64,000 nt of DNA from Tubulanus polymorphus (lineage: Eukaryota; Nemertea; Palaeonemertea; Tubulaniformes; Tubulanidae). Under the pieces are notes generated by a model. It was not told where the DNA came from and searched no databases. It saw only the letters and a program-made list of their open reading frames with translations. The position numbers and the translations under genes were made by a program. Positions 46,301 to 63,471 of this stretch are shown here, piece by piece; the stretch's first letter is position 1; every line of letters begins with the position of its first letter. Where the stretch lies: the NCBI RefSeq assembly GCF_964204645.1, contig NC_134025.1, positions 22,226,001-22,290,000 of the forward strand, read 5' to 3'.

Positions 46301-48400
46301 ATGCTTATTTTGTGTGTCCCTTTAAATAGCCACCACATCTGCCAGGAACGAAACAGGGTTTGAATTTGAAATGAAGTACAGATATAATGGGATGGTCGGA
46401 CGATTTTCAATTTTCAAATTACTAGAAATAATTGAATAGTGTAAACCAATATTTCAGGGAAACTTGCGATCATGAAGGAGCCACCTGTTGAGATTGTAGT
46501 AATCGAGGGTAAAAAAGCTTCATTTCAATGTACGGGTAGTGGTTCACCACATCCTCGTATCAAGTGGTACATCAATACTCAACCATACGCGGCTGGTAAG
46601 CTACAGTTCACCATTCAACATTTTTGGTATACGAATCGCTCAATGACTCGACGTTTGGGTTTCTTTTTTGATCTACGCGTACTCGATATCATTAGACCAA
46701 AATCTACGAATTACGAGTGCCTTTTTACTTGATGTCCCATCTCTCTTGATTTATCTCCCTATTTTCAGACCAAAATCCACGAATCAAGATTTCTGGTGGC
46801 ACATTCACCATAGAAAATGCCAAGATACCGAGTACGGCCAGCGATGGTACCATAGATCCAGGTGATAACATGGTCGTACAATGTGAATTGACAAATAATC
46901 ACCAAACCGTGTTGTTCAATACGGGGATTCACACAGTGAGTACGTATGATTACAGAATAAAATACATTTCTGATATATTTATTCATTGAGTTTCATGTAA
47001 GTCGCTAGAAAGAGGAATCAGCTACATTCTACTGTTAAGTCCGGGTGCCTCAACATACAAATTTTTTAAAAGTAGATTGGGGCTACGAAAACTACCTTAA
47101 AAGCCTGCCGAAAAAATTTGGAAATTGCCTTGTGCAGATTAAGATGCTCTAATCATAAATTGCCGATACAGTTAGGTACATACCAGGGTAGTGCCAGGGA
47201 AATCGATACTGCGTCAAATGCCAAGCTAATGTTGTTGGTGAGGAGAAACATTTTCTATTAAATTGTACATATTTTTCGGATTAACGTCTAAATCTCATCC
47301 ACCCTCGTTTTTGGAGATTACCAGGCCAATTCGCACGTCTATTAAATTCTAAAGGTAAAGCCTTGAGTAATTTAGCAATATATGTTAAAAGGGTTTATTA
47401 TCATATGTTTAAAGTCATGATATTCAATCTTGTATCTTCTTTTTGTATTAAAAGTGTATTATGTTGTTGTTATTATTTTGTGGACTACTCTGTGCTCTGT
47501 GCATTAAGTATTAATTGTGGAGCAATAAACTGAAACTGAAACTGAAACAGAACGATCAACACGACGTTGTTGTTTATGGGTACTATGAAAAATACAAGAG
47601 CAAACTAACATAACCGGTTAGCTAATTACATCGCAGTTATTCATGAAATAAGTTTTAGAAAGTTCTCTCTCGCTTGTGCATTTCATTTTATTAATAAATC
47701 AGATGGTAACATAAAAAGAATGTTTTCTTTCAGATAAGTCGACATGTCCAGACTGTGAGAATGGAGGCAAATGCATAAGAAAATCAACAGCATACGTTTG
47801 CGATTGCACCGCCGGTAAGATAGTGTAATTTGTGGTCGTATTATATTACTATGCGTTAATGTCAGTGTAAAAATGTTGCTCGAAATATACACTCATTTAA
47901 TAAGGGCTTTCCAGGTTTTGCTTAAATTGTGGGATTTTTTCACCGCATTCATCTTACACGGATACAGTGTATCTTATCGACCTATTAAATCGATTTTGTT
48001 TTTGATAGGGTTTTTCGGCGAAACATGTGAGAAATGTGACCCGTCATGTCCCGGAAGTAAGTATAACGACAATGGCATTTTATAAAATCCCCTTCATTCT
48101 ATAAAATGTGTGATTTTAATGAATTCTGTGATTATTACTTACTATGTACATACAAATAAGAATGCTATATCGTTAGGTAATTTACCGCTGATCATCGGAG
48201 TAACAGTCGCAGCTGGTGTGGTTGTCATCGCGTTTGCCGTTATTCTAATTGTCCTCGGAGTAAAGAAGAAGTTGTGTTGCCAAAAACCGAGTTCTACTGG
48301 CCGCAACTACCAAACTGAGCCCGGGGATCTGTGTCTAGACACGGCAGACAGTAACGCTGGTGAGGTGGGCGCAGAAAATGTCGTAAGCCAAATGAATTGA
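43322..48400 (+). CDS. Ig gene 4: four-Ig, EGF, transmembrane receptor with full tail
   Basis: Predicted 564-residue paralogue. Exons: 43322-43376, 43577-43709, 44008-44195, 44612-44839, 45033-45179, 45251-45353, 46076-46254, 46458-46595, 46769-46939, 47734-47814, 48009-48056, 48177-48400; total 1695 nt. Its leader is identical to gene 3's. Ig1 and Ig2 are almost identical to gene 2. Ig3, Ig4, EGF and tail are the most divergent of the three. Ig1 lacks its F-strand cysteine and C-strand tryptophan. The EGF-like domain reads CPDCENGGKC to FFGETC. The tail starts GVKKKLCCQKPSS; the CC pair just inside the membrane could be palmitoylated (pattern only). It ends AENVVSQMN, seven residues beyond the gene 2 stop. 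Introns 6 and 9 carry insertions absent from the other copies. Confidence 0.85.
43755..43914. mobile_element. pogo/Tigger-like MITE in intron 2 of Ig gene 4
   Basis: The same insertion as in genes 2 and 3, the most deleted of the three. Ends are CAATGGAATCTCGCTACAAC and GCTGTAACAAAGTTCCACCG. Confidence 0.55.
45576..45961. mobile_element. Foldback element with long inverted repeats in intron 6 of Ig gene 4
   Basis: A 386-bp element. Its left end runs AGGGAAGTTTCCAG, GCGCCATTTTGAGGCGGTCC, CGCATTGTTGGA and GATTTTAA. The right end contains the reverse complement of each in order (TTAAAATC, TCCAACAATGCG, GGACCGCCTCAAAATGGCGC, GAAACTTCCCT). The inverted repeats span about 65-80 bp. It is absent from the equivalent introns of genes 2 and 3. 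No coding capacity. Confidence 0.75.
46266..46388 (+). repeat. Dispersed repeat family A, copy 6 (intron 7 of Ig gene 4)
   Basis: A decayed copy: GGGAATTGTCCTTATG, CCACCACATCTGCCAGGAAC, GAAACAGGG and GAAATGAAGTAC. It sits at the same position as in genes 2 and 3. Confidence 0.6.
47040..47548 (+). mobile_element. 3' end of a 5'-truncated non-LTR retrotransposon in intron 9 of Ig gene 4
   Basis: Broken frames encode the usual C-terminal end of a LINE reverse-transcriptase polyprotein: RLRCSNHKLPIQLG, then after a frameshift RYCVKCQANVVGEEKHFLLN followed by C. The C-x2-C...H-x4-C pattern is typical there. A short 3' region ends in AATAAAC and three TGAAAC repeats (47531-47548), a microsatellite tail like those of several LINE clades. 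Intron 9 is 794 nt here against about 175 and 208 nt in genes 2 and 3. Inactive. Confidence 0.7.
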
Positions 48401-50457: not shown

Positions 50458-52133
50458 TTATATTTTGTCCATCTGACCGGTACTGAGCGAGCGACGGTGA
50501 TGATGGTGCCTTCCTTTACTGTGCATAATTTGGAGCATAAGTAGTTTACGAGAGGCGAACTTGTCGCCGAGTGCGACGATAGATCGTTTGTCTTTGCTCA
50601 TTTTGATTGAGAATATATCCATGGTCGCGTTGAAACAGCAGATCTGCGAACCAGTGCGCGTGCGCCACAGCCGAATCGTTCCGTCACGTGACCCGGACGC
50701 GATCAAGTCGTGATCGTCCGTAATGGCAACGCACCAAACCTGGAAAATGAAGAAAAAAGATAAATTCATAGTTCAAATCAATGATCGTTGAGCGATATGT
50801 AATAGGGGTTGGAATCGAGTTTCAGAATTTCAATAATGGTAAAATACCTCATCGGTATGACCTCTCAAGGTCACAGTATGTCGTTCCTTATCTAAGCCCC
50901 AGACTTTCAGAGTTCCATCTGCTGATGCAGACACCAAGTGAGTGCGATCCTTAGATACGGCGATAGCTTTCACTTCGCGATCGTGGGGAGTCGGGGATGT
51001 CATTCCACCTCTCGTGAGCTGTGGACTAGAAGTTGCGATCAGTTGACGAAGGGCTTTGCCGGTCTTCAAACTCCAGATGACCACTTCGCCTTTTCTTGTA
51101 CCGGTCGCGGCTTCATCGTAATCCAGAATTGCCGTACACTCGGGTAAGGCGTCCAGTGCGAATAGTTTTCCTTCGCCGGGAGAATGCGGACTGGCGTTAC
51201 GATCAAACACGATGAAGTTCGCCATGCCGTCGTACTGATTCATGAATCCGGCCACCACGTAACGGTCATCGGTAGAAACACCCAAGTAACTGACGGTATC
51301 GCTAAAGCCGACCGAACTCGGGTAATTCATTTCTCGTACAGGTTGGTTTCCTAGTATATCCCAGACAACAACGCTCGTTCCGGTACCGTACTTGTCCGTT
51401 CTGCCCAGAACGATCTTTTCGCCATCGTTGAACATGCAAGCAGCCGTGCACAAAGATGACTTGGGCATCTCAAATGGTTGGCCGGAATCATAATCCCATA
51501 ACTAAAATGAAATAATTAATTTTTCATCATTTCCTCCTGTGCATTTGTATATATGAATTCTGAGAATTAAAATAACTAGCATTACCTGTAATTTCATGTC
51601 GAATTTCTGTTTGTTTTCGTCGGCGTCGTGGTGGCTCTCGGCGGTGACTAGACCGGCTAGGACAGACTCCTGGCAGGCTAGATGGATGTCAGTCGACCCC
51701 AATTGTTCACCGCCACAAGTACTGATCAAATCACCTGTCTGCAATACACCAAACAGCAATAAAAGATTTGTAGGGTATTTCAAGTTGAGTTGCTATTTTC
51801 GTAGTGTATCATAATTGCTTCGGCGAAATAGATGCGGTGAAATGATCGTGAACTTTATTTTTCTAAACAAGACTCAAAGTGACGTTCAAAGTTAATACAT
51901 TTTATACGTTTAGATATTTCATTTTTTATTTACCCTGATATCCCATATTTGTGGTGGTCCATGCCCCGCACCGGTTATGACGTAGTGGCTGCTGCCGGTG
52001 AGAATGAAACAATCTACGCGAATTTCAGGAGCAATGCTAATTGCCGGAAATGGTGCCGCTTGTACTTGTTGCATCTGATAACCGTGTAACGTCCCCGCGT
52101 ACGATCCATGCCCTAATGTCGATGTACCCCATC
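50458..52133 (-). CDS. Neurexin-like gene, C-terminal WD40 propeller exons
   Basis: Four exons encode WD-type repeats ending GPPQIWDIR, MKLQLWDYDSG, TSVVVWDILG, ANFIVFDRNA, GEVVIWSLKTGKAL, GTLKVWGLDKE and GTIRLWRTRTG, then a last blade (SIKMSKDKRSIVALGD, RKLLMLQIM). A GH-type dipeptide precedes the strongest repeat (LRGHTDEVWCVAI). Seven to eight blades suit one closed propeller, a protein-protein interaction platform, expected in the cytoplasm if it follows the membrane span. A His-rich KGRHHHHRRS sequence lies near the C-terminus. The style resembles the WD region of NACHT-WD proteins, but no NACHT is present. An independent gene is possible if an unseen start exists, but exon 52133-51934 enters in phase 1 with no good start. 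Confidence 0.75.
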
Positions 52134-55100
52134 CTAAAACAAAAATTAACTGTCTATGAAATGAGAGATCTATGAAATATATCGATGGAATATATGATTA
52201 TATAATCTATAGACATTTTTTCGGGAGCTAATAATGCACCATACGTAGTTGAAAGTATAAGTTTATAAACTTGTATAGCCTTTGCTTACCTCCGGGTCCA
52301 ATAGTAGCGAATCCATCATTCATTCCACCCCCGCCCATAAGTGTATTGGATTGTTGGAACCGTGAAGTACTCTCGCTATAATGGGTTGTCATTCCTCCGG
52401 CTCCAATGGTACCGCCATAGCCGCCGGCACCTCCATAGCCACCAGCCCCTCCATCTACCGCCGCAGACCCCTGATATGACTCGCTTCTGTTCACCGCCAT
52501 CGTGCTTCCCTGGTATCCGGCGCCTGTACCGTATCCACCACCTGCAGCGCTTCCACCACCTGCAGCCAAAGCCGATTGAGATGATTTGAACGCATGGCTC
52601 TCGAAATGAGAACCACCACCAGCACCCGCTCCAGCTCCACCACCAGCGCCTGCTCCGGCTCCGGCACCAGCTCCTGCACCAGCTCCAGCATAAGCAGCTC
52701 CATTAACTACGGCGACCGACGTCTTTAGAGCGGCACCTGGAATTAATTGATAAAATCCAATTGTTGGAGGACTCATTCCATGAAGAAACACAAATCTTCA
52801 ATGGCAATAAAAAGACATTACCTGCCCCGGCACCTGCAGCTCCGCCAGCGCCAGCAGCTGCACCTGCTTTCTGGTAGCCTAACACACCATCATGTCCCTT
52901 AACGAAGATGTAGCCGCCCCCGGCAGCAGGAGAAGAGATAGCCATGCCGCCACCACCGGCACCACCAGCACCTGCAGCACCGGGACATAAACACCATCCT
53001 GGTTTGCACTTGTAAAACGCCCACATCAGCGCGGTGCCGAGCAACAACAGGCCGAGAAGAACCCCAGCAACAACTCCGGCACCACCGCCTATTGGCAATA
53101 TTCCAGCCCCAGCACCGGCTGCTGCGGTGTGTCCAGCTGCAACCGGAACACCAACAATGGGCATCAATTTTCCAAATCCACCTTTTCCAGCTACAGCACC
53201 GCCATCGCTGAGAGAAAAAAGTATTCATATTCATTTAAAAATCCACTGTCTACACGCGTGGTATCATGACTTTCATGTGCGTGTGTCACTCACCCTTTTG
53301 GCAAATAGAACAAATGTGGTGCAACGATTGCATCACCAACAATACCGGCGCCATTTGCCTGCGCCCAATCAATTACTCGTATGCCATTGTAATAAACACC
53401 TATGGAAAAAGTAATTCGCGTTTACGATGAAAAAAACTAAGACGAAAGATAGATAAATGATTTTTGTGTGGACTTTTCGATTGAATACTCTATAGTGAAT
53501 ATGTATAACCGGTGTTGTTTTACCAGCAACGATTCCGTTAAAACTGCCGTAGGTCTTTCCGTCCGCCCCTACGTATCCACCGACGTATATGTTTGACTGT
53601 CTTGCGAAGGCGGCCGCGCCGAGGTTAGTAGTAGAAGCTGCCGCGAAATTGTCGACGAGCATGCGCGCGTTCGTTCCGTCCCGATAGAATCGCACCACGT
53701 GGTACTTTCCGTCGTTGTATTTTATCGAAGATTCCATCAGTCGAGTTGTTATACCGTTCAACGAATATAAAAGAACTACATGTCCATCCTCCTGCAACAG
53801 CAAAACAGTTATATTCATTAACGATTATTGTATTAATCAATTTAGTTTATGTGTCATATATTTTGTTTATCATATGCTTTCATTCCCCGCTATTGTAACA
53901 GCCAAACAGTTTTGAAAGGATTTCTTTTCGATTAATGATAACATCTAAAGCAGTTTTACCATTTTGATTTCTAAAAAGTCATCATTCCCTGCGCCATCGA
54001 TTTTCAGTAATGTGCCATCAGTCTGCCACGTCATGAATCCGAACGCAAGTCGATCCGACGTCGGTGAAGGTCGCCATTGGGCTGGATATGTATACGTCAC
54101 TAGACCTGGACCGTTGTATTTTCCATATCTGTAACCTTCCGCCTCTGATGGTTAAGAAACAGATCAAAAAAGATAAATAACCAGTAACCGAAATCAATAG
54201 AAATATTGTGCTCGTGAAAAATATTTCAACTACGAGTAATGTTACCTTGTGTGCAAATCGCGCCAACAAATGACGTCATATTACAGTCACAATACGGGCC
54301 GCCCAGCGCATCGGTTACGCATGTTCCGTATCTTTGACAGAAAGGCGAACATGATCCTTTAACGAGAAAGAAAATATTCAGATATTCAATGGTTCTATCA
54401 GAATGTATGATTTTTCATATTTGCCTTAAAACAGAAAATAATATCTTACCCGTTATAGCTCCATCGCTGAAAATATACAAAAGGAGTGCACGGTACGATC
54501 ATATACAAATAAATAATATCATTGTATCGATTATTATAACGTATCACTTGCAGGATGATAATTCTGTTTCGAGAAAAACTTACCCGAATAAATGGAACTT
54601 GTGCGGAGCGATGATCCAATCTCCCTGCGCCAGGTTGTTTCTTATTGCAATATCGTTCATACGGAGGCCATTGTAATATATTCCTAATTCGCAAGAATAT
54701 ATTTTAATATAATAATATATCTTAATTTCGTGTTGTAGGCAAAATATATCATCATACAAATGGTATAAAGATAGAATGAGTATTACTTAAAGACTTTCAA
54801 AGCATCCACCCTCTATATGTATTGAACTAAGGGCGTTTTGCCTTGCTTAATGGAAGATTGTTTGGATGAACCGGCACCGAATTTCCAATTATGTACTCCG
54901 ATTTAAAAAAAAAACATTCTGTTAACTCGACCGCCCATCACACAACTATATCTGTACTTCGATTTCCGATTTCAGAATCAAACCCCCTGTTTCGCTCCCG
55001 GTAGGTGTGGTGGGTCTGTAAGGGACACTCAATCGAAAAATCAAACGAAATTTACCAACCAAATTAATAAATAACGGGGACAATCCCTATTTTAAGATCA

Positions 55101-58100
55101 AATAACATATTCTTTATACTGCATATACATATATGGTGAATAAATATTACCATTATTGTTATTATTATAAAAAGATATACGTATTTATATGTACCTGCTA
55201 TGATGCCGTAAAAAGGGTTCATAATATCGCCGTTAGTATCCCTATAGCCACCGCTGTAGAAAACAGACTGCGACGGGAACGGCGTATTACCGATCCCGAA
55301 AATGGTTGATGGCTGACTGCTGTCAACGTAGAGTCTCGCATTTTCGTTGTCTCGGACGAATCTGACCACGTGATATAGGCCGTCGTTATATTTCTTGGAG
55401 GATTGTTCAAAGCGATGAACTCGGCCATTCAACTTGTACACGAGAACGACGTGGCCATTTTCCTAAAAAAAAAGAAAATAGCGGCAAACTTCAAAACAAG
55501 ACTAAACAATTAATTTCATCGAATGTGTGTACAGCCCGGGCAAACTTCGAATAACGGAGTTAGTCCACTATTTGTGGACTAAGTAAAACTATGGACGTCT
55601 AGTTTATACGTCTATGGTTAGTTAGTTGAAACTATAGTCCAGAAATAGTCTACCACGAGATTGAGCTTGCTCGCTTTATCTCGGACCTACGTAAATCCAT
55701 GATGCCCGACACTGTGAAATACGTTACGACTGAACTACAGTATAGAGCGTTGGTCTCCGACCACTAGACGACTAACTACGAAAACCGAAGTTCGCCCTGA
55801 TTGTCTATTACTTTACCAGTTTTATTTCGATAGAGTCGCGCCCGTTCGCGCTCATCACTTTCGCGAGGGTACCATTCGGATGTCGGGTCATGAATCCGAA
55901 AGCTAAACGATCGCTTGTAGGCGATGGACGATATTGACTTGGATACGTGTACGTCATGATTCCTTTCGAGTTCTTCGATCCAAAATAGTAGCCTTCAGAT
56001 TCTGTAAATATATCCATATAGACATTGCTTTAAAGCGTAAGTAGAACTGTACGGCAAGCGAGTCGAGACGTATCATTAAGACCAGCTTAGGTTATTCTGA
56101 AAAAAGTCGAAACCGGTGCCCACAGACTTCTTAAGCCCGGATTCTGGAAAGGGACTTCAATTCTACCTTCAGTACAATAGCCACCAATGTAGGACGTCAT
56201 ATTGCAGTCACAGTAGGAAATGCCGGCAGCAGTGACACAGGTACCAAACTGGGAGCAACTTGGAGAACATGTACCTAAATACATAAATGTAAATATTGTC
56301 ATTGAACATCTAAATTGATGCGATAATAATCTAATATATAAGCATGCATATTGCGGTGATGTTATTGACTACACTAATGAAAGTATTCCAAGTAATCATA
56401 CCATACATGTAATGTAAAATTCGTAATGGTAAAACTTGGCCCATAAATTAAGGTTTTGAATAAATTTCAGTAAAATATTGTATATCTTAATCTCTACATG
56501 TTCTTCGAATCGTAAGTTTTCTGTTTCAACCAATGACAAAAAAATATTGGTTCGCTTACCACCAGGCAGAGGCTGCGTGCTGAAATAAGAATATCAATTG
56601 GTTGTGAAAATTACCCTTAAATTCAGTAAAAACGGACGATTATGGACGTTGTATTTTCAATTGCTGGCAGTACTTACGGGGGAGGTAGTTTGAACAAATG
56701 AGGTGCTATACTCCACTGACCAGTGGGTAGTCGATTTGTAATACCGTAATCAATCATTCTCAATCCATTATAATATACACCTAGAAGAAAACGTTGAATA
56801 AACTCTTCAATGCATCTCTTTTGAACAGTAATATCTTCTGAAACACAAGTCGGTAAATTGGTAGATGATAAAAGGTTTACCCGCGACGATTCCGTCGAAA
56901 TGGTCGACGATTTGTCCGTTTTTCATTTGACCGCCGATGTAGAATATATCCTGGTTCCTGAATTTTCCCAGTCCTGGGATTCCGTCGCCGGTTGGGATGG
57001 TCGCGGCCGGGTAGTTATCGACGTACAGACTGGCATCGGCTCCCTCCCTGACGAATCTGACCACGTGGTAGTTACCGTCGTTGTACAATTTACTCGATTC
57101 GGCCAGACGGCGTTTGAGCCCGTTAAGATGGTATATCAGAACCACGTGACCATTTTCCTGAATAATAAATCGTGGGAAACTTTATTGCATGCCATCATTG
57201 TTATATAAAGTATGTAATGGTGGCTATTTCAAGGAATCTGACGACAGCGCCATTGTTTCCTAAGATCGCCATTCTAACGATATCGTGTATACGATGGCAA
57301 TGGAAACAGAAATTACCAGTTTGACCTCCATGAAGTTCGCTTTATTTTTGCCAACGAGTTTAACTAGCGTTCCGTCAGGTTGCCACGTCATGAAACCGAA
57401 AGCTAATCTATCCGACGAGTTTGTCGGCAAATTGCCGATTTGGTATCTGTATTCTTGAATTCCCTTGAGATCATTATCGCCCAGTCTATAGCCTTCCGCC
57501 TCTGCAAAACAAATTAAAATAGTAGAACCTAACATACATGGTACTGGGGAATAATCCTGACAGTGGAAGAAAATATTCGTTTAATGAAACTTTTCGCATA
57601 CCTTCCGTGCATATTCTGCCAACGTATGAAGTCATGTTACAATCGCAAATGAAACTGGTATACCCGGCGTAACATCTTCCGAAGTTTTTACACGTTTCGG
57701 GAGTACAATAACCAAAACGTTCTGTGAAAATAATCCATCTATATTTTCCCGATTAGAACTGAATGCACATAAAATGATTATGCAAATGTCTTTGCGATGA
57801 AGTAGATTTTTTTAGTGTAACGTTATTCATTGTATCAACATCCGATTGAGCCGAAGACATGCCAGTGACCAGCTATCAAATTGGTAAATTTTTGCGATGC
57901 TTTTCACTGTACACCTTTGACTGATTTATAACACATGATTAGTGTTCTATTGGCAATATCAATGGGAAAATGATGTTTTGAAATTGATAAGTGCTTGAAC
58001 AGCGTTTGATTCGAATCGGTGCAGAAATCGTGCGAATGAACTTGTGAAAGTGCAGAAATCAACCCCGAAACCAATCAAAAAAAATTGTTTAAACAATCAC

Positions 58101-61100
58101 GTATAAAAACACCAGACCGTAGACATGCTTACGTTTAGAAATTGCAGGCAATGCATCTGTAAACGCGTAAGATAAAACAAAATTGAATAGAACGGTGATA
58201 GTATTATCTATTGGTATCGGCGCTGTAAAATCTCAACACTCCCTCTAAAAAAGCCTGCGGGATGTATATAATATAAGCACGAATAAACGAAATTCCGTAG
58301 AACTCACCTGTGCATCCTTTCACAACATTTTCACCATCATCGATCGCGTCATTAATCAAATCCGGCAGACGGCTGTTTATTTTCCACGTGGCGTAACAGC
58401 CGACCAGGCCTTTTTTAGACACGACCGCCGACGGCAACGACGCGTACCTGTTCGCCGGAACTCCGCCGACGAAGAAAGGTCCGTTCAGATGAAATTGCCC
58501 GTCACTTTGGTCAGGGTTAATCGTGGCCGTCGTCGCGTCCACGTGGATTATATGCCTGTTCAGACTAGGCACCGATAATTTCACTCTGTGCCACTGGTTA
58601 TCGTTCAGTTTCGTGGCGGTGTTTATTTTCGTCGATTTCGGGCCCAAACCGCTGTCGAAAGCGTAGTGCAGATAACCGTTCACTAATTCCAAAGCGACGA
58701 AATGTCCGTGAGGATTACCGCTGGTGAAGGCGATGAGGCCGTTTTCGTGTTTGGTTTTGAAAAGGAATGACAGTTTCATCTTTTCCCTGGAGCCCATTCC
58801 TTCCAGTTCGATGAACGTTTGCGGCGACCGGACGGTGATTGGCAATATCACGAACAGACCTCCCTCGTCGTGGTGCCCGGCAGTTCCGTCGATGTTTACG
58901 CCGCCGTCCGTGCCGATCAGTTCGAAATATTTCGAACCGTCGAATATAACGTTGCTCATTTCGCCGATATAGTTTCGATAACCGAACGGCGGTTTTATAC
59001 CCTGCCCGTACGTTCCGAAGTTCACATTTTGAATTATGAATTCGAAGTCTTGCTTCGGAATATCACCTGAAAAATATTAACATTGGATTATCAGTTGTGT
59101 TGTCAGTTCTGTTTCAGTCAAAATGATGAAAACGCTATCGATGCAGGTTTTTGCGGTGACTGATTCGGGCCATACTAAAAGTTTTTCAGTACGGCTATAC
59201 GGCACGATAAATTTTTTTAAGGAATTCTCGCACGAAAAAAACTGTAAGTTTTGAATTCGCACGAGAAAACAAAAAAAAATTGAATTCTCGAACGAGAAGA
59301 CCAAACTGTTTTATTTCTCGCACACAAAAAAACCAAACTTGTAGAAATCTTAATTTTATCGTGCGTCTGGTCGGGTAGGAAATCTTTTCTGTATGGCCCG
59401 TATCAAACCATAGGGTTTGTGCTTGGATCCAATGATTTGTGACCGTAGCCTATAGCCAGAGGCACGAGGTGTGAAAACGAAAAACAAATTGATGCATTCT
59501 CTTGTTTCTTTGGCTTTCTGTTGGAAACGTGTTTTTCGACTGCAGTGCGTGTCCGCCTTTATCACAATTTATATTTTGTAGAAATCGAGGCTCCTGCATA
59601 GCGTATATTGCAGGGTTTTGAACGAGTTATCTTACTAGTAACGGGTACACCGTCGTCCACCCAAGCTTGCAACTGGTCCGCTCTTCGACGTATGTGCAAC
59701 GTGTGCCATCGGTCATCGTTTATGTTGTTGCCAACACGAATAATCTAGATGGGTGAAAATGAAAATAATGTCCGTGATTTATTTCGTTTTAGTTGGAATG
59801 AGAATATTCATGCAGTGTTCACCAATTAATAACCAATGCTTCTGTAGGATACCATTTCAACGTGAATTCAACATATTCTTTTTCATGTATACATTCAAAG
59901 TGTGTATGTTTGAATACTCGGCTCAACCTAAAGCCAATTTCCAATTGCTTTGAGTACGGATTTTTCAAGATAAACATGGGAGGGCGAAGGGAAAAAATGT
60001 TCAATTCTTATTATAGGAGTTTAAAAAAGGAAGGGAGCAGGAAAAAAATAAAAATGAATTTTTGAATTATTTGGGTATTTTCAACATGAAACCATGAAAG
60101 GACTGCAGAAAAAATAGAAATGCTGTGAAGGTTATGATGAATTTTTTTCAAATGATCTTGAGATTGAAAATTAAGATGAACATGACTTTTACAAGTGATT
60201 GAAAATCAAGACGGGCATAACGAAAAGATTCTTTTCTTTGTATTGGAAAAACTGTGATGAAAACACGAAGGACAAAAAAGATTTTCATAGAGTAATTTTT
60301 GCCGAATATTGGGAGGCGGATCCGTACTCCGAGTAATTAAAAAAGCCGAACTGGTGATATTCGTAAAACATATTACCCTTTGTCCGTCGCGAACTTTTGC
60401 TGTAATCTTCGCCTTGCCCTCTTCTATTTCGCTCTTGAGCATGTGTTGTCCATCGGGAGACTGGGTAAGGAAGAGTACGGTATTGTCCAGTGGGGTTTTA
60501 AACCTGATCGAGAGATCGTTGACGTGTCTGGTGTGGTACGGATGTGGATAGGTAACTCTCACCCACTGTGTACCGTCGAATCGTCGGATTGGTGCAACTG
60601 AGAAATTCGAAAAAAAACGACAAGTCATTTATCATAACGAATAAACGAGCAGATACATATATTGACCGGGACGATCAAAATCCAAAATTTAAGAATTACA
60701 GAACGTTTCTTAAGGAAGTTAAACTTATATGTAGAAATTTGAATATTCTCGGTGTTCGCAACTGACACATATCGCGACTTAATATGCAAATATATGACTG
60801 ATTATGCAAATATATGTATGTAGATGTTCAGTTAGAAATGTTTGCCAGGACAAAATCGTTTATCGGGACTTTTTACCAGATTTTCTTTTTAAGAATAAAT
60901 AGAAAGTATTGAAGTTAACGGAACCTTACCATCTTTACATTTGAATCCGGTGTACGGAGTGTCACGACAATCGCATACGAACGAGTTGTACCGGTCCAAA
61001 CAATTACCATTAAAACAATCATCCGTGTGACCGCAATAGAGACCCGGCATATTACACGTCGAACCGATACTAATTCCCGAGGTAGCGTGAGATTCTTCGA

Positions 61101-63471
61101 AGTTTGCGCTCACGCCGTTGATTTTCGGATCGAGAATGCACCCGATGAATCCTTTTCTGCCCCATAGCTTCCACGGCAAAACGGACGGGTTATCGATACC
61201 GCCGATGTACATGAACGAACCCAGATTAAGATTCGGGTCGTTGCCGGGCACGTCGACCTGGTGAGATTGTTCGTCGACGACTACCAGGAACGATTTGCCG
61301 CTCTTTTCGATGTGAACGTCGTGGAATAGTCCGTCATTAACGCGCCTAGTGCCTAACATCTGACGTACCGTTCCTTGTCCGTGATTGGCCAGCAAATACA
61401 ACTGACCGTCGTACACTTCCAGAGCGATAAAATCTTGGTAGCCGAGCGGCGCTCCGTTGAAAAGCAACAACCCGTTCGGTTCGGGAGTTTTGAATTTGAA
61501 CTCTACCGATCCGGTCGGGTGCGTGTTCCATTTAGGAAGACGGACGTACGATTCGCGTGTACGAAATGTGATCGTTTTTGGTCTGGATGGAAGTGTCGGT
61601 GGCGCGGTCACGGTGACCGGATCTTTCGTGATAATCGATGCGGTCGGGCCTGGTCCGCCGCCGTCTGTTGTAGTCACCGATATTGTGGGTTTGACGACGA
61701 TGTATTTCGGAACGGTTTCGCGCGTGATGTCGACGATTACGTTGATTTGAGGCTTCGTCGATTGACCACTCTGAACTATAGCCTAGAAATACATCGAAAA
61801 CATGAAAAGAACAAAATGTTTTCTTCACCTTAAAGATACAATATTGATAACAATAATAGTAATATCGATAATTATCATCTATTATTACTATTATTGCTAT
61901 CAGTATTATTACTACTATCAATATTATAATTCTTAGTGTATTTAACATTACTAATGAATATTATAGTATCATTGATATTCATTATCACATATATTATAAA
62001 GCAACATATGTATCGATTTGTATTGCACCTTGCACATAATGCAACTCCTACAATGTACAATAATCTAGTGTAAGACATGAAGAAAATGAAATTATATTAT
62101 ATCATATTATATACACATTTATCATTTGTGGAATACAATATTCGTGTCGCACAACTTACGGATTTAATTTCTCCGTAGAAATTATTGTAGACTTCGTAGT
62201 TGGTGTTCTGCGATGGATTTGGAGTACCGCATATGTAAATTTGGCCATCATTTAATATGTAGAAATCATAGTTCAAACGTTCCTCGGATTGATATCCGTC
62301 GTCGACCGTAACTGTCAACTATCAAGAAAAAGAACATTCGTGGATTTTGTATTCCTTTCGATTAAAATGATTCGGGATTAATCGGTTTCAATAGATTACC
62401 AAACGGGCTCTTTTCTGAACGAGAACTTTGTGCCATCGGCCATCGTCGAGTCTAGGGGTTCCGATCTGTTTTGTTATGCTTTGTCTATTCAGACCAACAT
62501 CGTAATCGAGGTTGACAACTATGAGTCCAGCCTGAAATAAGATTTTCAAAAATACAACAAATTAAAACAGACTTTTTCGGAAATTTAGATTCTGGAGATT
62601 TTTTTAATTTTGTTTTGTAAGGTTACCTTTAATCTTATGAACATTTTACCACGGCTGTTTTCAGTAAACCACAGTAAACCGTCCGATTGGGTAGCTTTGA
62701 ATTCTAGGCTTACTTCTTCATTCGCGTTCAAATACCTATCCATTTCGTCGACGTTGTATTTCACCCAACCTTGACCTCCGGGACAATTGAGTATAGGCGG
62801 GGACGTTTGCGGCCTGGGAGTGGTGCTAACTTCCTCGCACACTTTCTCCGGTATCAAATTAAGCGCCATCAACCTTGACCTTCTCGTGTTCCACGTGTTG
62901 AAATCGTCCAATATGAAGTTCGCGTAGCGCGCGCTGTTGCGGAATGAGTTCGGTCGACCGACGTAAAACCTCCACCCGTTTTCGCTGATACCGTAATGAC
63001 TAGTCGGGTATCGAGCCTGTCCCGTCTTTATACAATTCACGAACATCGAAACGCCTTCGTTTTTGTTCCAGGTCAATTCGACGAGATGCCATTTGTTTGT
63101 TTGCAGCGGTTTAGACGAGGCGGTCCATTTCTTATCGGGCGTCTTGATCGTTCCTTCCAATCGGCCATTTTTGTAGACCAGATCTAACGATTTACTCGAT
63201 ACGTAATGCGAATTTTCGCGATTGTCCATCGGATACACCCAGGCCCGCACGGTAAACCCGTCTTTGCAGTTTCTCAACAAGTCTCCTTTACACATGAAAC
63301 GGTCTCCGAAGTCGATGTATTGGTCGATTCCGTTTAGTTTTATGCCTTTACCATTTCGCGATGGAACCAACGGTGGTTGGCCGTAAATGTAGCCGGTAGT
63401 TCCCGAGTTACTATCGATCAACCTATTGCCGCGTTGTATGTTTTCGAATCGGAACAGATTTTCCGAGACAA
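50458..63471 (-). CDS. Neurexin-like LNS/EGF membrane protein with C-terminal WD40 propeller (5' end off the window)
   Basis: Twenty-eight exons encode 2424 residues; the start lies right of the window. Exons: 63471-62627, 62531-62400, 62318-62160, 61782-60930, 60597-60377, 59744-59636, 59066-58308, 58156-58133, 57721-57602, 57501-57317, 57157-56881, 56780-56678, 56579-56560, 56274-56167, 56001-55817, 55462-55195, 54683-54584, 54466-54450, 54356-54246, 54144-53960, 53791-53524, 53399-53294, 53207-52822, 52736-52290, 52133-51934, 51738-51586, 51501-50848, 50739-50458. All phases agree. Order: a concanavalin/laminin-G-like domain, LNS, LNS-EGF, LNS, LNS, three EGF-LNS cassettes, a transmembrane span (about 1761-1783), a Gly/Ala-rich region, and seven to eight WD-type repeats to the TAA. 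The ectodomain is of neurexin type (synaptic or epithelial adhesion). The WD40 end is unexpected. I am confident of the exons and less so that they form one protein. Confidence 0.75.
52290..53207 (-). CDS. Neurexin-like gene, transmembrane and Gly/Ala-rich exons
   Basis: Exon 53207-52822 encodes a small-residue linker, a hydrophobic span (GVVAGVLLGLLLLGTALMWA) and a stop-transfer-like YKCKPGWCLCPG, followed by Gly/Ala repeats. Cysteines just after the span could be palmitoylated (pattern only). Exon 52736-52290 encodes a long GAGAGAG run, then GGGYGTGAGYQGS and GGAGGYGGAGGYGG segments with scattered Ser and Tyr, like silk or low-complexity assembly sequences. Both exons end in phase 1. No folded domain is expected here. 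Confidence 0.8.
53294..57721 (-). CDS. Neurexin-like gene, three EGF-LNS cassettes
   Basis: Each cassette has the same four-exon plan. An EGF exon of 120, 108 or 111 nt ends in CDCNMTS followed by a G-x2-C turn. A 185-nt exon encodes E-x-EGY and RLAFGFMT. A 277-, 268- or 268-nt exon encodes NDGxYHVVRF and YVD. A 103-, 100- or 106-nt exon encodes GVYYNGLR-type sequence and APH. Cassettes 2 and 3 are preceded by 20- and 17-nt microexons (56579-56560, 54466-54450) and cassette 1 by a 24-nt one (58156-58133). The sequence matches the last LNS domain of neurexins (YHVVRFTRNG, GLYYDGLKV). The cassette was evidently duplicated as a unit. Confidence 0.85.
54862..55101 (-). repeat. Dispersed repeat family A, copy 7 (reverse orientation)
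   Basis: On the - strand it reads TTAAAATAGGGATTGTCCCC, then CTTACAGACCCACCACACCT, CGGGAGCGAAACAGGGGG, GAAATCGAAGTACAGATATA and GAAATTCGGTGCCGGTTCAT. It lies in an intron of the neurexin-like gene. Confidence 0.7.
58308..63471 (-). CDS. Neurexin-like gene, N-terminal laminin-G/EGF half
   Basis: Exon 63471-62627 begins with a jellyroll domain (FTVRAWVYPMDN, KWHLVELTWNKNEGVSMFVN, WRFYVGRPN), then after a Pro/Thr linker starts an LNS domain (EVSLEFKATQSDGLLWF). The next two exons finish it (DDGRWHKVLVQKRARL, FYGEIKS). Exon 61782-60930 has a Thr/Pro-rich linker, an LNS domain (SVEFKFKTPEPNGLLLFNG, GRKGFIGCILDPKINGV) and an EGF domain (CGHTDDCFNGNC to TGFKC). Exons 60597-60377, 59744-59636 and the start of 59066-58308 make a third LNS (DDRWHTLHIRR, YIGEMSNVIFDG). 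The remainder of the last exon is a fourth (KLSFLFKTKHENGLIAFTS, KKGLVGCYATWKIN). All face the extracellular side by family precedent. Confidence 0.8.
59154..59410. mobile_element. Foldback MITE, third copy
   Basis: Same family as 23816-24039: GGTGACTGATTCGGGCCATA at the left, TATGGCCCGTATCAAACCAT at the right, and several diverged CTCGCACGAGAA motifs inside. It lies in an intron of the neurexin-like gene. Confidence 0.65.
59945..60350 (+). repeat. Dispersed repeat family B, copy 2
   Basis: Aligns with 19550-20095: GAGTACGGATTTTTCAAGAT, GGAAGGGAGCAGGAAAAAAA, AAAGGACTGCAGAAAAAA, TTGAAAATCAAG and GGAGGCGGATCCGTACTCC in the same order. It lies in an intron of the neurexin-like gene, antisense to it. 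Confidence 0.6.

Follow-up and report, generated by a model that had tools for sequence, protein, structure and literature searches.

Here we describe a gene of the nemertean Tubulanus polymorphus in which a neurexin-like ectodomain, one membrane span, a Gly/Ala-rich linker and a candidate WD40 propeller are joined in one reading frame. Judged from the sequence, we estimate at about 0.8 the probability that one gene is involved and that its WD40 tail is really produced. That reading is based on an open frame that runs unbroken through 44 exons and encodes just two hydrophobic segments, on a joining intron of 156 bp that has a good donor and no canonical poly(A) signals, on a first WD40 exon that is open and Gly-rich like the linker ahead of its first ATG, and on a WD40 block that is single-copy and lies in a stretch containing no N. 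The points against it are AATAAA at 51930 and 51859, TATAAA at 52267, degeneracy of the first five WD repeats and the low confidence of the structure model.

Gene model and predicted topology

Positions are those of the window, the 64,000-nucleotide stretch of DNA that was analysed, unless the prefix C1 is given. Exon-by-exon reconstruction of the minus strand between 63471 and 50458 gave 28 exons, including a 24-nt mini-exon (58156-58133), with GT/AG at every border, agreeing phases at each junction and a frame of about 2,424 codons whose only stop is the terminal TAA (50458). The claim of the initial annotation that 28 exons keep one frame to a stop is therefore upheld, and the three exons that it had placed at 53207-52822, 52736-52290 and 52133-51934 were recovered at the same positions. 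Its placement of the gene start at 63471 was wrong, since the frame continues upstream beyond the window to an ATG at C1:22307938 (window-equivalent 81938), 18 kb beyond the window, where the N-terminus reads MADFSISVCCSTLLVILLNIHTIFLPVRS and is likely a signal peptide. The curated model comprises 44 exons and 3,925 aa in a single open frame from ATG to stop; 16 of the modelled exons are located upstream of the 62627-63471 exon, outside the window. Introns of the gene range from 81 bp to 6.1 kb, with a median of about 159, and the assembled stretch is without any N. The upstream part of the model includes a weak acceptor (72879), may lack several Thr/Pro exons or contain several too many, and omits a possible exon at 64882; these uncertainties leave the window part unaffected (Table 1).

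Mean hydropathy in 19-residue windows over the whole protein exceeds 1.6 in two clusters only, the N-terminus and the span that precedes KCKPGWCLC. For this reason the LamG/EGF part is predicted to lie outside the cell and the linker and WD40 block in the cytosol, such that the encoded protein should be a type I single-pass receptor, as predicted from hydropathy. An extracellular WD40 block was rejected, since it is located after the sole membrane span.

Two neighbouring loci were also observed. At 48086-48400 on the plus strand an open frame that encodes an evident membrane span (LIIGVTVAAGVVVIAFAVILIVLGVKKK) probably represents the last part of a neighbour in convergent orientation. Upstream of the gene and on its strand, at window-equivalent about 83700-84600, there are seven-span receptor-like open frames, the adjacent gene on that side resembling a GPCR.

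Table 1. Features of the gene within the window, in order of transcription.
Feature	Position	Strand	Basis or remark
Laminin_G_3 (ConA-like) exon	62627..63471	-	first of the gene's exons to fall inside the window
Two LamG-type exons (62531-62400, 62318-62160)	62160..62531	-	rebuilt exons, Pfam
Exon with LamG domain and EGF-like module	60930..61782	-	rebuilt exon, Pfam
Further LamG domains (exons 60597-60377, 59744-59636, 59066-58308)	58308..60597	-	rebuilt exons, Pfam
24-nt mini-exon (TDALPAISKQ), phase 1-1	58133..58156	-	acceptor 1.9, donor 1.9
EGF-like exon	57602..57721	-	rebuilt exon
Three tandem LamG cassettes, with EGF exons 56274-56167 and 54356-54246 between	53294..57501	-	rebuilt exons, Pfam
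Stalk, membrane span and juxtamembrane exon (TALMWAFYKCKPGW), start of Gly/Ala tail	52822..53207	-	genome-unique
Membrane span GVVAGVLLGLLLLGTALMWAFY, then KCKPGWCLCP	53013..53077	-	sole hydrophobic segment besides the likely signal peptide
Gly/Ala-rich cytoplasmic linker exon, phase 1-1	52290..52736	-	skippable in frame
Intron joining linker to WD40 exons, 156 bp	52134..52289	-	splice-site ranking within the gene
WD40 exon 1, Gly-rich lead-in GWGTSTLGHGSYAGTLHGYQ and repeat 1	51934..52133	-	rebuilt exon, WD match
WD40 exon 2	51586..51738	-	rebuilt exon
WD40 exon 3, main block of repeats	50848..51501	-	Pfam, PDB; model and Foldseek
WD40 exon 4, last repeats, basic C-terminus ...HHHHRRSLSTGQMDKI, stop	50458..50739	-	rebuilt exon

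Relationship to neurexins

The order of modules from the ATG to the window is an LNS1-EGF exon, about five Laminin_G_3 (ConA-like) domains and an array of Thr/Pro exons. The first exon, which carries LNS1-EGF, aligns with PDB neurexin-1-alpha at E 2.4e-76, best over residues 32-243. Within the genome it is most similar to the opening exon (C1:25732679-25733386; 43% identity, E 1.9e-53) of a gene at C1:25627199-25733386, 3.4 Mb away on the same chromosome. Because this second gene ends with a span, a 4.1-type tail and the C-terminus KEWYV, it was taken as the canonical neurexin of the genome; its two ends were compared, the exons between them being only partly modelled. The two spans read ...GTALMWAFYKCKPGWCLC in the WD40-tailed gene and ...LIIIYVFYKCKGRDEGSY in the canonical neurexin. 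Alignment of stalk and span between the two proteins scores 61, a value that none of 2000 shuffles attained (their mean was 27), and ends at FYKCK, which is common to both. A second copy of the span exon 53207-52822 was not found elsewhere in the genome. The neurexin-like character first assigned to the ectodomain and span is thus borne out by comparison with both PDB neurexin-1-alpha and the canonical neurexin.

Pfam places five Laminin_G_3 stretches upstream of the window and one inside it. When one such domain was used as the query of a genome search, all five matches fell in the gene itself (C1:22288846-22299700) and no other genomic match was found at E 0.001. EGF modules were called by their cysteine pattern and the neurexin-1-alpha LNS1-EGF alignment, with no separate Pfam EGF match. 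The three LamG cassettes between 57501 and 53294 have 43-59% mutual identity and a common exon pattern that includes mini-exons of 17-24 nt, and by sequence comparison they are an internal duplication specific to this gene; the mini-exon at 58156-58133 is the positional counterpart of those at 56579-56560 and 54466-54450. The Thr/Pro array, at C1:22292268-22293827 (window-equivalent 66268-67827), consists of ~66-nt phase 1-1 exons encoding near-identical repeats PVGLNRPHAKTTTPGIFIGNP, some copies of which have apparently decayed. It looks like a recent exon duplication that would yield a mucin-like stretch of variable length.

The gene resembles alpha-neurexins in its likely signal peptide followed by LNS1 and EGF, its multiple LamG/EGF modules and its single span ending in FYKCK, all of which are features of the neurexin superfamily. 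Canonical neurexins contain exactly three LNS-EGF-LNS units (six LNS, three EGF), whereas the present ectodomain departs from that layout and from alpha-neurexin by its extra Laminin_G_3 domains and Thr/Pro exon array. The cytoplasmic side differs as well, a Gly/Ala linker and WD40 block standing in place of the 4.1-binding/EWYV tail of the canonical neurexin. Matches to the 4.1-binding model PF01034, at E up to 1, were confined to the canonical neurexin at C1:25627199 and a syndecan, and the same search revealed no hidden alternative 4.1 tail exon at the WD40-tailed locus. Moreover, the WD40-tailed protein ends ...GQMDKI, without a PDZ ligand of the YYV/WYV type, whereas the canonical neurexin ends ...KEWYV; the MDKI end could be a class III PDZ ligand at most. 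The initial annotation was therefore right that the usual short 4.1/PDZ tail is absent from this gene, and that tail is present in the canonical neurexin of the same animal.

CASPR and neurexin IV carry a discoidin (F5/8 type C) domain at the N-terminus. No Pfam match to this domain was found in the scanned stretches of the gene, whose N-terminus is LNS1-EGF. The gene shares a LamG/EGF ectodomain and one span with CASPR/neurexin IV and with C. elegans ITX-1, NLR-1 and BAM-2, but differs from them by a tail of about 640 residues that contains the WD40 block and by having no discoidin domain found. The C. elegans members of the neurexin superfamily are all short-tailed in the cytoplasm (PMC12414531).

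One gene or two

How well is the WD40 tail tied to the receptor? Gly and Ala take 77 of the 148 codons of the linker exon 52736-52290, with third bases T31 A24 C14 G8. The Gly/Ala exons are argued to be coding on the ground that the amino acids are kept while third bases vary, unlike a drifting simple repeat. In total the Gly/Ala-rich linker amounts to about 210 residues. The intron that joins it to the WD40 exons is phase-matched and near the median length of the gene's introns, and among the gene's own sites its donor ranks about 37/43 and its acceptor about 30/43. We grade both sites as good, and no donor equalling this one was found in 15.6 kb of scanned intron sequence.

A separate WD40 gene is the first alternative to be weighed. 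The receptor would then end after the Gly/Ala exon, and an adjacent gene, perhaps a downstream cistron, would begin at the first ATG of exon 52133 (MQQVQAAPFPAIS...). In favour of this, a complete WD40 protein could be translated from the ATG, which sits immediately ahead of WD repeat 1; if the joining intron were retained, a stop would follow after 19 extra residues (...MVHY); and some animals have operons with gaps of about the 156-bp size. However, the surroundings of this ATG (CAGATGC) make a poor context, and the preceding 20 codons form an open stretch in which Gly, Ser, Thr and Tyr abound, as they do in the linker. The two halves lie only 156 bp apart, with a good cis-splice donor and acceptor in matching phase. 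The initial annotation had named polyadenylation between the Gly/Ala exon and the WD40 part as a sign of two genes; a search of the joining intron (52134-52289) found neither AATAAA nor ATTAAA, and only a weak TATAAA at 52267. We regard two genes as unlikely and as a weak competitor of the single gene. Poly(A) signals do not discriminate strongly between one gene and two, because AATAAA is also missing from the 1.4 kb downstream of the stop (50458 to 49000), an absence that a variant poly(A) signal or a long 3' UTR may explain.

It is also rather improbable that the gene is single but the WD40 form a minor isoform, most transcripts ending early to give a short-tailed receptor. Early ends could arise from the two AATAAA in the first WD intron (51930, 51859), from the TATAAA at 52267 or from retention of the intron that follows the Gly/Ala exon, and the 1-1 phase of the Gly/Ala exon means that splicing of the tail could vary. 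Yet AT-rich introns can be expected to contain AATAAA by chance, no resemblance was recognised for the truncated ends (...VNKK, ...MVHY), and the frame through the WD40 exons is open, their WD signatures being intact. A mis-assembly or a chance chain of exons joining unrelated sequence is very improbable; the model was checked against the assembly alone, in which the stretch has no N, the joining intron is short with good splice sites and phases match at all junctions.

The WD40 identity of the tail is well founded. The block matches PF00400 at E 2.7e-17, over its cut-off, and the PDB WD-40 chain 2ymu at E 7.5e-70. The seven to eight WD repeats originally described before the stop hold up as to their WD40 nature, and eight units were counted by eye (ending IWDI, LWDY, VWDI, VFDR, IWSL, VWGL, LWRT and MLQI), the first five of which are degenerate. 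These five still match WD chains, namely the designed eight-bladed Tako8/Ika8, at E 7e-18 to 4e-15. A single-sequence structure model of the 218-residue exon 51501-50848 is all-beta with a pLDDT of 58.8, a low confidence that makes it a consistency check only, and a Foldseek search with this model returned WD40 propellers. The repeats may form an eight-bladed beta-propeller. The nearest solved WD40 structures are WDR5, APAF1, PkwA and Tako8/Ika8, alike in repeat signature and predicted all-beta fold. Family-specific assignment with Pfam and NCBIfam gave nothing specific, the NWD2 C-terminal propeller matching only at E 0.07, and no recognisable enzyme was found in the linker and WD40 block.

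The genome contains one copy each of the WD40 block and of the tail; the next best matches to the block reach about 30% over 90 residues, as would be seen with any WD40. With no recent donor gene visible in the genome, the fusion would be old or its donor lost. An origin of the WD40 part as a retrocopy was rejected because of its introns.

Proposed origin and role

The simplest reading of the first-exon identity, together with a span alignment that stops at FYKCK, is a duplicated neurexin with a replaced cytoplasmic part. One copy would have retained the outer part and span and lost the 4.1/PDZ tail, and its cytoplasmic end would have been replaced by the linker and WD40 block. We think it probable that the gene is a neurexin paralogue whose adaptor-binding tail was swapped for a covalent WD40 scaffold, so that the receptor would bring along a cytoplasmic assembly platform of its own; an entire animal clade may have retained this arrangement.

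On the current view, neurexin-type receptors act inside the cell through short tails that recruit separate PDZ and band-4.1 adaptors. In the model that we propose, the ectodomain would bind partners on other cells or matrix, and a non-enzymatic WD40 propeller, kept close beneath the membrane by the flexible linker, could gather cytoskeletal or signalling proteins there. With no separate PDZ or 4.1 adaptor needed, contact itself would concentrate the WD40 scaffold at the junction. The tail would likely serve as a membrane-tethered scaffold at sites of receptor engagement. In Drosophila, the tail of neuroligin 2 binds the WD40 scaffold RACK1, and actin is affected via Rac1/RhoA and cofilin (PMC10584876). 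There, too, the tail of an adhesion receptor places a WD40 scaffold at the membrane; this is an analogy, not homology, and RACK1 is a separate partner whereas the WD40 block described here is part of the receptor chain.

No paralogue with the same fusion was found elsewhere in the genome, and no relatives of the gene in viral contigs. The open-access literature searched, whose coverage is incomplete, held no precedent for a LamG or neurexin receptor with a cytoplasmic WD40 block, and none emerged from literature of the same coverage on cytoplasmic WD40 receptors and axotactin. It is quite possible that a predicted orthologue stands unremarked in databases, given this incomplete coverage and a comparison with this animal genome alone.

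Since a canonical neurexin with a normal tail is encoded in the same genome, the swap of tails can be studied by direct comparison in a single animal. If the proposal is correct, the adaptor-recruiting wiring of neurexin-type receptors can be replaced outright, and the gene would offer a compact system in which to ask what a contact-site scaffold suffices to do. If transcripts agree, it would represent an unreported route from surface contact to the cell interior.
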